Shown here in pieces: positions 19,819 to 23,087 of a stretch of 64,000 nucleotides of DNA (the stretch's first letter is position 1; the number at the start of each line of letters is the position of its first letter). The DNA is from Amycolatopsis australiensis. Lineage in GTDB: Bacteria; Actinomycetota; Actinomycetes; Mycobacteriales; Pseudonocardiaceae. The stretch is from the NCBI RefSeq assembly GCF_900119165.1, contig NZ_FPJG01000006.1:8470001-8534000 (forward strand), given 5' to 3'. A program made the translations under genes and the position numbers. Under the pieces are notes generated by a model, which saw only the letters and a list, made by a program, of their open reading frames with translations, had not been told where the DNA came from and did not search any database.

Positions 19819-20679
19819 GCGGGGTAGCCCGTTCGGCTGATGGTCCGGACCACAGTAGTGGTCTATACCAATCATGACCGGAATTCCCGCCTCGCGCACC
19901 ACGCCGTGGAGGTTTCCCATGCGCCTGCGTTCCCTGCTGGCCGGCCTGGCCCTCGTGACCACCGGCTTCGCCGCTCCGGCCGAAGCCGCCGCCGGATCCC
20001 CGATCCCCGTCGGGCCCTACGTCGACATGGGCGCGTGGCCGACGCCCAGCCTGTCGGCGATGTCGGCCGCGAGCGGCGTCAAGGGCTTCACGCTAGCCTT
20101 CGTCAACTCCTACGGCTGCAGGGCCAGCTGGTTCGGCGCGTACGACCCGCGCACGGCGTGGCAGAAGGACGAGATCACGAAGATCCGCAACGCCGGCGGC
20201 GACGTCAAGATCTCCTTCGGCGGCGCGTCGGGCATCGAACTGGCCCAGGCGTGCAGCACGTCCGCGCAGGTCGCGGCGGAGTACGACGCGGTCGTCAAGG
20301 CGTACGGCCTGAAGTACGCCGACTTCGACATCGAGGGCGCGGCCGTCGCGGACCCGGCGTCGATCACCCGCCGTTCGCAGGCGCTGAAGACGTTGCAGGG
20401 CAACAACCCGGGCTTGAAGATCTCGCTGACGCTGCCGGTGCTGCCGAGCGGCCTGACCGCCGACGGGCTCAACGTCGTCAAGTCCGCCAAGGATGCGGGC
20501 GTTTCCCTCGATCTGGTGAACATCATGGCGATGGACTACTACCAGGGCGCGGGCGACCAGGGCGCGAAAGCGATTTCCGCGGCGAAGGCGACGCAGGCCC
20601 AGCTGAAGTCGCTGTACGGGCTCAGCGACGCGGCGGCGTGGAAGAAGGTCGGCGTGACCCCGATGATCGGCGTCAACGA

Positions 20680-20697
20680 CTCGCAGAACGAGATCTT
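20680..20697 (+). repeat. Left 18-bp repeat (attL-like)
   Basis: CTCGCAGAACGAGATCTT, identical to 22891-22908. It contains the small inverted repeat CTCG-N5-CGAG, the kind of symmetry found in tyrosine-recombinase core sites. It is part of the chitinase reading frame (SQNEIL before the TGA). Confidence 0.85.
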
Positions 20698-20758
20698 GTG
20701 AGAGCGAAATGCCCTCTGACCTGGGGATCAGCACCTCGATTCATGGGCTATGAGTAGG

Positions 20759-20780
20759 CCAGGCCGTCACCAGGCCGTCA
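20759..20780 (+). repeat. Tandem 11-mers near the left end (arm-type sites?)
   Basis: Two head-to-tail perfect copies of CCAGGCCGTCA (20759-20769, 20770-20780), followed by a partial third (GGCCGTCTC). The same 11-mer occurs in the same orientation near the right end (22793-22803). Their position 60-90 bp inside each end resembles integrase arm sites. The second copy overlaps the stop codon of the minus-strand remnant. Confidence 0.5.
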
Positions 20781-20860
20781 GGCCGTCTCTTCGGCTTCTC
20801 CACCAGCCTTGCGCGACTTGAACATCTCATCGGCAGCGGCCCGCGCCCGCTCGTGGCTGG
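20778..20860 (-). pseudogene. C-terminal tail of an unknown protein, possibly an integrase
   Basis: Reading leftward, the last codons give SHERARAAADEMFKSRKAGG and end EAEETA before a TGA at 20778-20780. The codon choice looks coding. The position, tail pointing at the left repeat 80 bp away, is where actinomycete element integrases usually sit. The upstream sequence in this frame runs antisense into the TPR gene, so a junction near 20860 seems to have removed the rest. The integrase identity is a positional guess. Confidence 0.3.
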
Positions 20861-21550
20861 TTGCATTTCGACCTTGGGAATGCAAACGAAGCAGTGCAGT
20901 CCTGGCGAAAGACGCTGAAGATTGCCAAGGACTCGGGCGACGCCCCTTTGGCGGCGTGCGCGCTCTCCTATTGGAGTTACCTGGCATCGTCGCGGAACGA
21001 CACCATCCCAGCCGTGCGACTACTACAACAGGCCGAAAGCTACGTTCCTGGTAATACAGCTCCCGCTACCCGCTCGTGGGTAGCGGCGCGCGAGGCCGAG
21101 GAACTAAGCCGTCTAGGAAAAGAGACAGAAGCTATGCGCGCACTCGAACGGGCTTTCACCGCTTTCGACTTCGCACATCCGCGTACGGAGCGTCATTGGA
21201 ATACGTTCTTCACGGCGAACAGACTCGGAAGTCTCACAGTGTCGACCTACATGAGACTACAGCATAAGGACGCTCCTGCTATCGCAGATTCCCTGCTCGC
21301 CTCCCTACCTCCGACCGTTCGGAAGCAGCACGCGCTAGCTCTCGCCGACTTGACCACGCTTTGCGTGCGAGCGAACGACTACGACCGAGCGCGCGCATTG
21401 GTGGACAGCGCGATAGATTCGACGATCCGCACTGAAAGCAGCTTGTCACGACAGCGCCTGCTCACACTTTCTTCCGAGCTTGCGTCCGCGAAGAAGGGCA
21501 GTCCCGGAAGCACCATGCGAGATAAGATCCGATCAGGCTTGCAGCGATAG
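20861..21550 (+). CDS. TPR-repeat protein fragment (regulator C-terminus)
   Basis: The frame is open from about 20861 (TTG) to 21550 and gives 229 helical residues: LGNANEAVQSWRKTLKIA, RLLQQAESYVPGN, LGKETEAMRALERAFTAF, ADLTTLCVRANDYDRARALVD. These are degenerate TPRs, like the C-terminal half of actinomycete XRE-TPR or sporulation-type regulators. No HTH, clear start codon or ribosome site is present, so I read it as 5'-truncated at the junction near 20860. G+C is lower than in neighbouring host genes. It ends 3 bp from the convergent cutA. Confidence 0.6.
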   Translation: MHFDLGNANEAVQSWRKTLKIAKDSGDAPLAACALSYWSYLASSRNDTIPAVRLLQQAESYVPGNTAPATRSWVAAREAEELSRLGKETEAMRALERAFTAFDFAHPRTERHWNTFFTANRLGSLTVSTYMRLQHKDAPAIADSLLASLPPTVRKQHALALADLTTLCVRANDYDRARALVDSAIDSTIRTESSLSRQRLLTLSSELASAKKGSPGSTMRDKIRSGLQR

Positions 21551-21553
21551 CGA

Positions 21554-21883
21554 TTACGCTGGTCGAGTCTCGACTGTCAGCCAGGCAAGATATTCTTCGC
21601 TACCGGCTTCGATCGGCTGCGCGACGATATCGGGTACGTCGTAATGGTGATTCTCTTTGATGTGCGCGAAAAGCAGGTCAAGCCGGTCACCGTCAGTCTT
21701 GACCAGGCATTGCCACTCCTGCTCATCGTGAATGCTGCCTTGCCAACGGTAGAAACTCCGGACAGGGCCAGTCACTTGAGCGCACGCGCCGAGACGCACC
21801 TCTACGATGCCCCGAGCTAAACGCGCTGCATCTTCCGCGCTGTCCGTCATCGTAACGACCGTGTAGTAGCTCCGCGACAACAT
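21554..21883 (-). CDS. cutA: CutA family divalent-ion tolerance protein
   Basis: 109 aa from ATG 21883 behind GAGGAGGAC; the upstream in-frame extension is unlikely. CutA1 features are YTVVTMTDSAEDAARLARGIVEVRLGACAQV-type N-terminus (here split: MTDSAEDAARLARGIV, RLGACAQV), SFYRWQGSI, the EEWQ-like DEQEWQCLVKT and HPYDVPEI-like HHYDVPDI. CutA forms trimers, is linked to copper tolerance in E. coli and is otherwise of unclear role. It is complete and could be expressed from the element. Confidence 0.88.
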   Translation of the reverse strand: MLSRSYYTVVTMTDSAEDAARLARGIVEVRLGACAQVTGPVRSFYRWQGSIHDEQEWQCLVKTDGDRLDLLFAHIKENHHYDVPDIVAQPIEAGSEEYLAWLTVETRPA

Positions 21884-22093
21884 GTCCTCCTCGATCCGCT
21901 CCCGCTCAGCCGAGTTTACTGCCGAATTTGGCTCTATGGGATCAAGGCGCGCCACCTGCGGCGGCGCGCACAGGTCACCTTGCGTCCGTCGGGCTCCGCC
22001 CTTGGCGGACCGGCCTCCCGCTCCGCTCCGCTCCGGCCGGCCGCCGGGCGAGCCCGCCGAAGAGCTCGGTACCCGCTTACGCGCCGCCGCTAC
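21884..22093. other. Non-coding stretch in the element
   Basis: About 210 bp between the cutA start and the end of the ankyrin gene. The part from 21980 to 22080 is extremely G+C-rich, with short direct repeats (CCGCTCCGCTCCGCTCC), flanked by A+T-richer sequence. No convincing coding frame is visible. It should hold the cutA promoter and the ankyrin gene's terminator. Confidence 0.5.
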
Positions 22094-22486
22094 CTAATCG
22101 ACATCTTCGAAGAACTGCCTGACGTCGTAGTTCGCGATGAGTCGAGCCAGTCCGGCGGGGGTCTGTCCGGAGCCGTTGACCCTGTTTGGATCGGCCCCGT
22201 GCCGCCGAAGGAGCCGAATGACTTCGCCTCGTCCACGTGAATGGAAAGCCGCCACGAAAAGTGGCGTGTTCCCGTATTTGTTTACCGCGTCGACGGTAGC
22301 TCCGGCCTCGAGCAGCACCTCGGCGACGGCCACGTTCCCCTGCTGGGCGGCCAGATGGAGCGGGACGAAGCCGTCACGGTCCCCTGAGTTCGGGTCCTGC
22401 CCCGCCGCCAAGAGCGCGCGAGCCTGGTCGGCGGTACCTTCAAGCGCGCTGTAGTGCAGCTCGGAGCGACCTTGGCGATCAACCAT
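22094..22486 (-). CDS. Ankyrin-repeat protein
   Basis: 130 aa from ATG 22486. Three to four ankyrin units: LHYSALEGTADQARALLAAG, FVPLHLAAQQGNVAVAEVLL, GNTPLFVAAFHSRGRGEVIRLL and TPAGLARLIANYDVRQFF. There is no signal peptide or enzymatic domain, so it is probably an intracellular protein-binding module. It is the most upstream intact gene on the element's minus strand and could be co-transcribed with cutA. Its partner is unknown. Confidence 0.85.
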   Translation of the reverse strand: MVDRQGRSELHYSALEGTADQARALLAAGQDPNSGDRDGFVPLHLAAQQGNVAVAEVLLEAGATVDAVNKYGNTPLFVAAFHSRGRGEVIRLLRRHGADPNRVNGSGQTPAGLARLIANYDVRQFFEDVD

Positions 22487-22701
22487 GCCTGCGTCTCCCG
22501 TTGCTCATCGAGGTAGCTAGTGCGCTCACCTCGCAGGCGATCATTTAACGCCGGGCCGCCGATATCAAGGGCGCCTTCGGCGTCGCTACGCGATGAGCTG
22601 CGCTCACCCTTGACACCGACGACCCAGCGCTAACCGTGGCAGGGGCGAGGAAGGCGGGAGCGGACCGCCACTCCCTGAGTTTGACTGCGAGGAGCGCCAC
22701 C
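22487..22701. other. Non-coding stretch with long-loop inverted repeat
   Basis: No coding frame is visible. TCAAGGG (22565-22571) and CCCTTGA (22607-22613) form a 7-bp inverted repeat around a 35-nt loop that itself alternates short G+C-rich and mixed blocks. Similar hairpins occur in intergenic parts of actinomycete plasmids and integrative elements, as far as I recall. The stretch also serves as promoter region for the ankyrin gene and the small ORF at 22702. Confidence 0.4.
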
Positions 22702-22908
22702 ATGAAGCGACCGAGCCGACAGCTCAGCCCGAATCAGACGGCCCTGTTCAGCCCGTACCAACTCACCCTTTGGACCGAGCAGGCCCGCGCCGCCAGGCCG
22801 TCAAACGACCCGACGGGACCGGACGCAACAAGCACAAAGCAGCAGGTCAACGGCACGTCACGCCGCCGACCCGCTGCTAGGTCGCGCAAGCTCGCAGAAC
22901 GAGATCTT
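22702..22908 (+). CDS. Small ORF running into the right repeat, unrecognised
   Basis: ATG 22702 follows GAGGAGCGCCACC, a credible ribosome site. The protein starts MKRPSRQLSPNQTALF and is rich in Arg, Pro and Gln. In the chromosome the frame runs through the right repeat into the chitinase in the wrong frame, up to 23367. If the element were a circle joined at one repeat, the frame would continue into the left end and stop at TAG 20755-20757, giving 88 residues. An imperfect 11-bp inverted repeat (22838-22848, 22868-22878) lies inside it. Function unknown. Confidence 0.4.
22793..22803 (+). repeat. CCAGGCCGTCA copy near the right end
   Basis: Exact match, same orientation, to the two tandem 11-mers at 20759-20780. 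It lies 87 bp inside the right 18-bp repeat, a mirror of the left-end position. Confidence 0.45.
22891..22908 (+). repeat. Right 18-bp repeat (attR-like)
   Basis: CTCGCAGAACGAGATCTT, identical to 20680-20697. The chitinase reading frame resumes in it (SQNEIFYQKD). Confidence 0.85.
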
Positions 22909-23087
22909 CTACCAGAAGGACGCGAAGGCGCTGGTGGCGTTCGCGAAGACGGTCCACCTGGGCATGCTGTCGTTCTGGGAACAGGGCCGCGACGCGAACG
23001 CGTGCACGGGCGCGCTCTACCGGTGCACGAACGTGCCGCAGTCGCCGTACGAGTTCGCGAAGATCTTCGCCGGCTACACCGGCTGAG

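Follow-up and report, generated by a model that had tools for sequence, protein, structure and literature searches.

What has split a secreted GH18 chitinase gene of Amycolatopsis australiensis in two? In the stretch of DNA analysed here (the window; 64,000 nucleotides of contig NZ_FPJG01000006.1), 2,211 bp lie between two perfect 18-bp repeats and divide the gene into a 5′ and a 3′ part. We conclude that this insert is very probably a decayed actinomycete integrative and conjugative element (AICE), left within the gene after an internal deletion. The frame opens with an ATG at 19919 and meets a stop directly after the left repeat; behind the right repeat it continues as SQNEIFYQKDA and ends at 23086. 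Joining the flanks at one repeat gave 957 bp, that is, 318 codons and a stop. The exact restoration proposed in the initial annotation was thus confirmed, as were the split, the length of the insert and its lower-G+C interior (62.8%, against 71.6% for the window). The rejoined 318-residue protein aligned end to end (residues 1–318 to 1–321), with 93% identity, to the product of the uninterrupted gene in another genome (G007). The 5′ part alone is orthologous to residues 1–268 of the G007 protein (92% identity) and matches Pfam PF00704 with an E value of 4e-6 and 27.2 bits, slightly below the cut-off of 29.6. By sequence, the closest solved structure is PDB 9buf, exochitinase 1, which aligned to residues 21–319 of the G007 protein. 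Loss of chitinase activity is likely because the barrel end is the part that is cut off, and the split chitinase is presumably inactive.

To place the insertion in its context, we compared 80 genomes of the genus, A. australiensis (G000) included. The 18-mer is present in 26 of them. In the 9.3-Mb G000 genome, the two copies flanking the insert are the only exact ones, and the reversed-letter control gave none. Among the 25 other genomes, 24 hold one copy inside an uninterrupted SQNEIF frame; in the 25th, G067, the copy sits at the right end (right junction only) of a full element. GH18 orthologues at 69% identity or more occur in 42 of the 80 genomes among the matches listed, and 39 of these 42 are unbroken to residue 321. 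In G000, G067 and G029 the match stops at residue 268, and the frame contains a TGA.

Searching the genus at the DNA level, we found both ends of the window element again in G067, where about 9.8 kb separate them, and in G029, where the distance is about 12 kb. Both genomes carry a full AICE at the same base of the same chitinase gene, of 9,848 bp core to core in G067 (locus L048) and of 12,066 bp in G029 (locus L049). The gene set of L048 is AICE anatomy: a tyrosine integrase adjoining the left end (Phage_integrase PF00589, E = 2e-13), the replication initiator RepSA (PF20199, E = 4e-98) and an FtsK_SpoIIIE transfer protein (PF01580, E = 5.5e-9), together with a 76-amino-acid excisionase-like HTH_17 open reading frame (ORF), an HTH_31 protein and an XRE-TPR regulator. 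The int, rep and tra products of L049 are 96, 91 and 93% identical to those of L048. Together, full AICEs with a tyrosine integrase at one and the same base and the unbroken gene in most orthologues strongly support, on comparative sequence evidence, site-specific integration into a protein-coding gene, as had been claimed.

The same evidence bears on the alternative that the repeats arose by chance, by misassembly, as a homologous-recombination repeat or as a transposon target duplication, which we regard as exceedingly improbable. Full AICEs occupy the same base in two other assemblies, an integrase remnant sits at the left end of the insert, and the window holds 3 matches to the 18-mer with up to three mismatches, against a shuffle mean of 0.05. 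Moreover, 18 bp is long for a transposon target duplication.

Aligned with the full elements, the window element shows what has been lost. Its left 160 bp are 89–91% identical to both of them, and positions 20781–20864 correspond to residues 401–428 of the G067 integrase (79% identity). The bases that follow belong to mid-gene sequence of the XRE-TPR regulator, and over the next 1.25 kb the interior is 88% identical to G067. The deletion amounts to about 7.6 kb relative to G067, with a few base pairs of microhomology at most at the junction. The integrase tail and the mid-gene jump indicate that the remainder of int was lost in the deletion, and with it rep, tra and the HTH_17 ORF; RepSA and an FtsK-type Tra were not found in the window element by comparison with the L048 proteins. 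From the gene set of a functional AICE (int, rep, tra), it thus keeps the integrase tail only. It is in this sense a decayed AICE (DAICE): its direct repeats enclose cargo and what is left of an integrase gene, and the site is one that a full AICE uses.

Three elements at one site also allowed us to delimit the recombination site. The initial annotation had noted a CTCG-N5-CGAG symmetry in the repeat. The letters are present, but the CTCG half is not essential, as the stretch common to all six junctions of the three occupied sites (G000, G067 and G029) is the 12-mer CAGAACGAGATC. In the attB orientation, CAGAA-CGAGATC-TTCT, a 7-bp centre lies between inverted AGAA and TTCT. The left junctions read CGAGATC-TTGTG in the window and CGAGATC-GTCTG in G067 and G029, and the right junctions CGAGATC-TTCT. 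In related AICEs within GH27 genes (see below), the common stretch of those with both ends seen (L050, L052 and L118) includes the 7 bp GTACGAC. Judged from the letters, CGAGATC and GTACGAC could both represent the overlap of about 7 bp of a tyrosine recombinase. Near both ends of the elements lie copies of CAGGCCGTCA, two on the left and two on the right in G067 and G029, and two on the left and one on the right, at 22794, in the window.

As the full elements at the same base in G067 and G029 show, a tyrosine-integrase element entered the GH18 gene by recombination between its attP and a short target site, which split the gene and produced the repeats. In the core model that we suggest, strand exchange would occur in the 7 bp CGAGATC, which in attB is flanked by the AGAA...TTCT inverted repeat, and the CAGGCCGTCA repeats would serve as arm sites of the integrase. 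Comparison with G067 shows that a deletion of about 7.6 kb then fused the integrase gene, near its end, with mid-gene sequence of XRE-TPR; the integrase, the excisionase-like ORF, Rep and Tra were lost. The remnant would be stranded unless a matching integrase entered from outside.

Several points weigh against this origin. Recombination at the site is deduced from comparison rather than observed. No counterpart of the ankyrin-repeat gene of the window element turned up in L048, in L049 or in any of eight further loci examined. The right end has also diverged further than the left, with 79% identity to G067 (205 bp) and 80% to G029 (392 bp); the ancestor was therefore not identical to either full element. 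The whole 2.2 kb matched in no other of the 80 genomes among the matches listed, the longest match being the 1.25 kb of G067. In addition, the chitinase halves lack clear decay, unlike the expectation for a long-dead gene, which a young insertion would explain.

The features of the locus are collected in the table. The CutA1-like gene adjoins the XRE-TPR gene also in G067 (L048) and G035 (L051). Both non-coding blocks recur at AICE-like loci of the genus; the TCAAGG/CCTTGA inverted repeat of the second is retained in most aligned loci and raises the question of a promoter-operator or an origin, and this block (22523–22671) had no Rfam match at the gathering threshold. Relatives of the small end ORF were found in 6 of the 10 loci tested (L048, L049, L050, L052, L119 and, in two pieces, L053).

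Table 1. Features of the interrupted chitinase gene and the element within it (window positions)
Feature	Position	Strand	Basis or remark
5′ part of secreted GH18 chitinase gene	19919..20701	+	ORF; ends SQNEIL, stop codon 20699–20701 just within the element
attL, left attachment site, 18-bp repeat	20680..20697	+	CAGAACGAGATC at 20684–20695, common to six junctions
Direct repeats CAGGCCGTCA (20760, 20771) and CAGGCCGTC (20779), putative integrase arm-type sites, left end	20760..20787	+	same intervals in L048 and L049
AICE tyrosine integrase remnant, last 28 codons and stop	20778..20864	-	match to G067 integrase
Internal-deletion junction, integrase tail to middle of XRE-TPR gene	20848..20865	.	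blastn overlap, side-by-side sequences
XRE-TPR regulator gene, 3′ half (HTH half deleted)	20861..21550	+	95% to G067 protein residues 239–469; TPR_12, E = 6e-6
CutA1-like cargo gene	21554..21955	-	PF03091, E = 7.7e-32
Non-coding block recurring in many genomes of the genus	21919..22090	.	repeated partial DNA matches, query positions ~1222–1393
Ankyrin-repeat cargo gene	22094..22486	-	PF00023, PF12796
Second recurring non-coding block, with TCAAGG/CCTTGA inverted repeat	22523..22671	.	DNA matches
Small AICE end ORF (MKRPSRQLSPNQTALFS...), open through attR	22702..22890	+	related ORF in other loci
attR, right attachment site, second perfect 18-mer copy	22891..22908	+	exact repeat search
3′ part of GH18 gene, with stop	22909..23086	+	reading frame; barrel end including MLSFWE; aligned to PDB 9buf

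Other origins and targets were tried and rejected. For a phage origin, the 18-mer was absent from viral contigs and phage records gave no DNA match; for a plasmid origin, 14 plasmid records matched, each covering just 2–3% of the element. A tRNA target was rejected as well, with no tRNA in the window or in 30 short integrase loci; 30 further integrase loci held one tRNA (L144), more than 5 kb from the integrase.

Can the window copy still excise? It had been proposed that the element, if excision still occurs, acts as a switch for the chitinase. Such a switch would operate if the element, non-autonomous and mobilisable in cis, still excised in part of the population by means of an integrase supplied in trans, restoring the chitinase. 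Both 18-mers are perfect, both gene halves are still in frame, and the 5′ half appears constrained, with ω (dN/dS) of 0.042–0.088 in the three split-genome pairs, against an intact-pair median of 0.087; private changes at columns otherwise invariant among 29 genomes number 1 in the window and 0 in both G067 and G029. However, the weak decay is accounted for just as well by a recent insertion, and the 3′ half of the window gene is somewhat less constrained by ω, on few changes. Its own integrase is down to 28 codons, one putative right-hand CAGGCCGTCA arm repeat has been lost, and G000 holds a single full-length integrase relative outside the window, 49% identical and beside another gene (the remaining three matches are weak, at 28–31%). 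The genome thus offers no integrase known to act here. Loss of its own integrase, with this distant relative at another target, makes excision, and hence a switch, unlikely for the window copy; it would take the arrival of an outside integrase or action of the 49% relative at this site, and we regard a living switch here as very unlikely. The proposal is thus unsupported for the window copy, which is most likely a relic.

The 49% relative lies in a second AICE-like locus of G000 (L121, G000:C6:2441000-2458500), whose RepSA is 73% identical to that of G067; its integrase adjoins its own RepSA gene and the 3′ end of an acyl-CoA dehydrogenase gene.

Returning to the relic, we asked how far the gene has decayed and how often the site was hit. 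For the 3′ half, where changes are few, ω is 0.17 between the window and G067, 0.39 between the window and G029 and 0.07 between G067 and G029, with an intact median of 0.09. Mean ω against the intact genomes is 0.164 for the window, 0.080 for G067 and 0.119 for G029, and the means of 17 intact genomes themselves span 0.065–0.296, two exceeding that of the window. The 3′ half of the window gene may therefore be slightly relaxed, within the limits of such small numbers. The pattern fits young insertions and intermittent function alike, without choosing between them.

In a gyrB tree of 21 genomes, a single clade of the three split genomes was rejected (approximately unbiased test, p-AU 0.0045); with gyrB and GH18 combined it was not rejected (p-AU 0.067), the bootstrap not being settled. 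The GH18 tree (29 genomes) needs 2 changes and the LysR tree (17 genomes) needs 3, and bootstrap trees uniting the three split genomes made up 0% in the gyrB, gyrB + GH18, GH18 and LysR analyses. The GH18 analysis kept 29 of 31 genomes (G058 and G004 were dropped for want of a SQNE[IVL] core match), the other 11 of the 42 orthologues lying outside it, and LysR was found in 17 of the 31. These are trees of one or two genes with weak backbones, in which repeated precise losses would leave the same picture; they make more than one gain or precise loss of an element at the GH18 site likely, short of proof.

Synonymous divergence (dS) between G067 and G029 is 0.46 for int, 0.40 for rep, 0.31 for tra, 0.41 for the flanking LysR gene and 0.09–0.10 for GH18. 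Against G067, dS is 0.41–0.45 for the rep and tra genes of the AICEs that occupy GH27 sites in G061 and G046a; dS thus does not distinguish inheritance from reacquisition. Gene exchange at the GH18 site is possible. The GH18/LysR dS ratio of this pair is about 0.23, under the lowest of 45 other pairs (0.41) in a comparison of 10 genomes that did not include G029.

Finally, we examined where related integrases insert. Relatives at E values up to 1e-60 occur in 38 of the 80 genomes, and a scan of named genomes gave 30 integrase loci. Relatives at 66–72% identity lie inside GH27 alpha-galactosidase genes in G061, G046 (twice) and Crossiella sp. S99.2. These AICEs (L050, L052, L118 and, in Crossiella, L125, where the integrase-side end alone was seen) break the gene at YLKYD/NCN, a motif containing the catalytic nucleophile; in G061, the break in the Melibiase_2 profile between the two flanks falls at positions 130 and 131. 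The G060 integrase (75%) adjoins an MFS gene by Pfam, and its homology stops near residue 380, so that a deletion may account for this end.

A tree of 36 integrase loci, of which 17 remained ungrouped, has a branch supported at 100/99 that sets apart the six GH18 and GH27 users together with four ungrouped rows (G060, G048, G032 and G002). Eight aldehyde dehydrogenase users form a separate clade, and five acyl-CoA dehydrogenase users with four ungrouped rows another; three ungrouped loci match the acyl-CoA dehydrogenase probe at just 31–33%. The integrases of this family at L066–L073 and at L054, L080, L083 and L084 lie at the 3′ ends of aldehyde or acyl-CoA dehydrogenase genes, the aldehyde dehydrogenase target being assigned from the ORFs of L066–L073 and Pfam on L066. 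Such 3′-end sites are the protein-gene counterpart of the usual tRNA 3′ ends.

A bolder proposal, which we consider unlikely, is that an AICE integrase clade has specialised on conserved barrel-coding glycosidase sites (GH18 SQNEIF and GH27 YLKYD/NCN), and that the full elements in G067, G029 and the GH27 carriers would switch polysaccharide degradation off on integration and on by precise excision. Such a specialisation would account for gene halves with little decay and for a GH18 site that was hit or lost repeatedly.

The target range itself looks new, with six close integrases in GH18 or GH27 genes and two other clades at dehydrogenase 3′ ends. Among the titles and abstract openings listed in a literature search, no report of an element in a chitinase or galactosidase gene appeared, although this is weak evidence that none exists.

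Together, these results explain an apparently split chitinase gene and exemplify how, at a single base, an AICE arrives, disrupts a gene and decays, the site being empty, fully occupied or held by a remnant in different members of one genus. They also draw attention to an integrase clade that, so far as its targets are known, mostly uses glycosidase rather than tRNA genes; the clade offers new integration sites for Amycolatopsis tools and poses the question of whether full elements restore the enzyme by excision.

Elements that interrupt a gene and restore it on excision include skin in sigK and the comK prophage. Like these, the window element is precisely inserted in a coding gene that excision would restore; unlike them, it has neither its own recombinase nor evidence of regulated excision. 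Cis-mobilisable elements (CIMEs) keep attL and attR in the absence of recombination and transfer genes. The window element resembles them in its attL and attR, with both 18-mers perfect, and in lacking such genes, but one of its two right arm repeats is missing and evidence of mobilisation is absent. By Pfam, the full element in G067 resembles pSAM2-type AICEs in its RepSA, FtsK_SpoIIIE, tyrosine integrase and HTH_17 ORF. Its site, shared with the G029 element, lies inside a protein gene, unlike those of the vast majority of tyrosine AICEs, which according to PMC3218068 insert in tRNA 3′ ends, the pSLS subfamily excepted. For AICEs, PMC9513070 reports insertion sites in 36 tRNA genes, in 14 genes that encode proteins and in 1 intergenic space. 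That study has also described decayed AICEs within protein-coding genes: Streptomyces DAICEs with partial integrases lie between direct repeats in a glycosyltransferase gene. As in these, cargo and part of an integrase gene are enclosed by direct repeats in the window element, and its site is empty in some genomes and filled by a full AICE elsewhere; it differs from them in its host, Amycolatopsis, in its target, a GH18 chitinase gene, and in having full elements in two other genomes of the genus.

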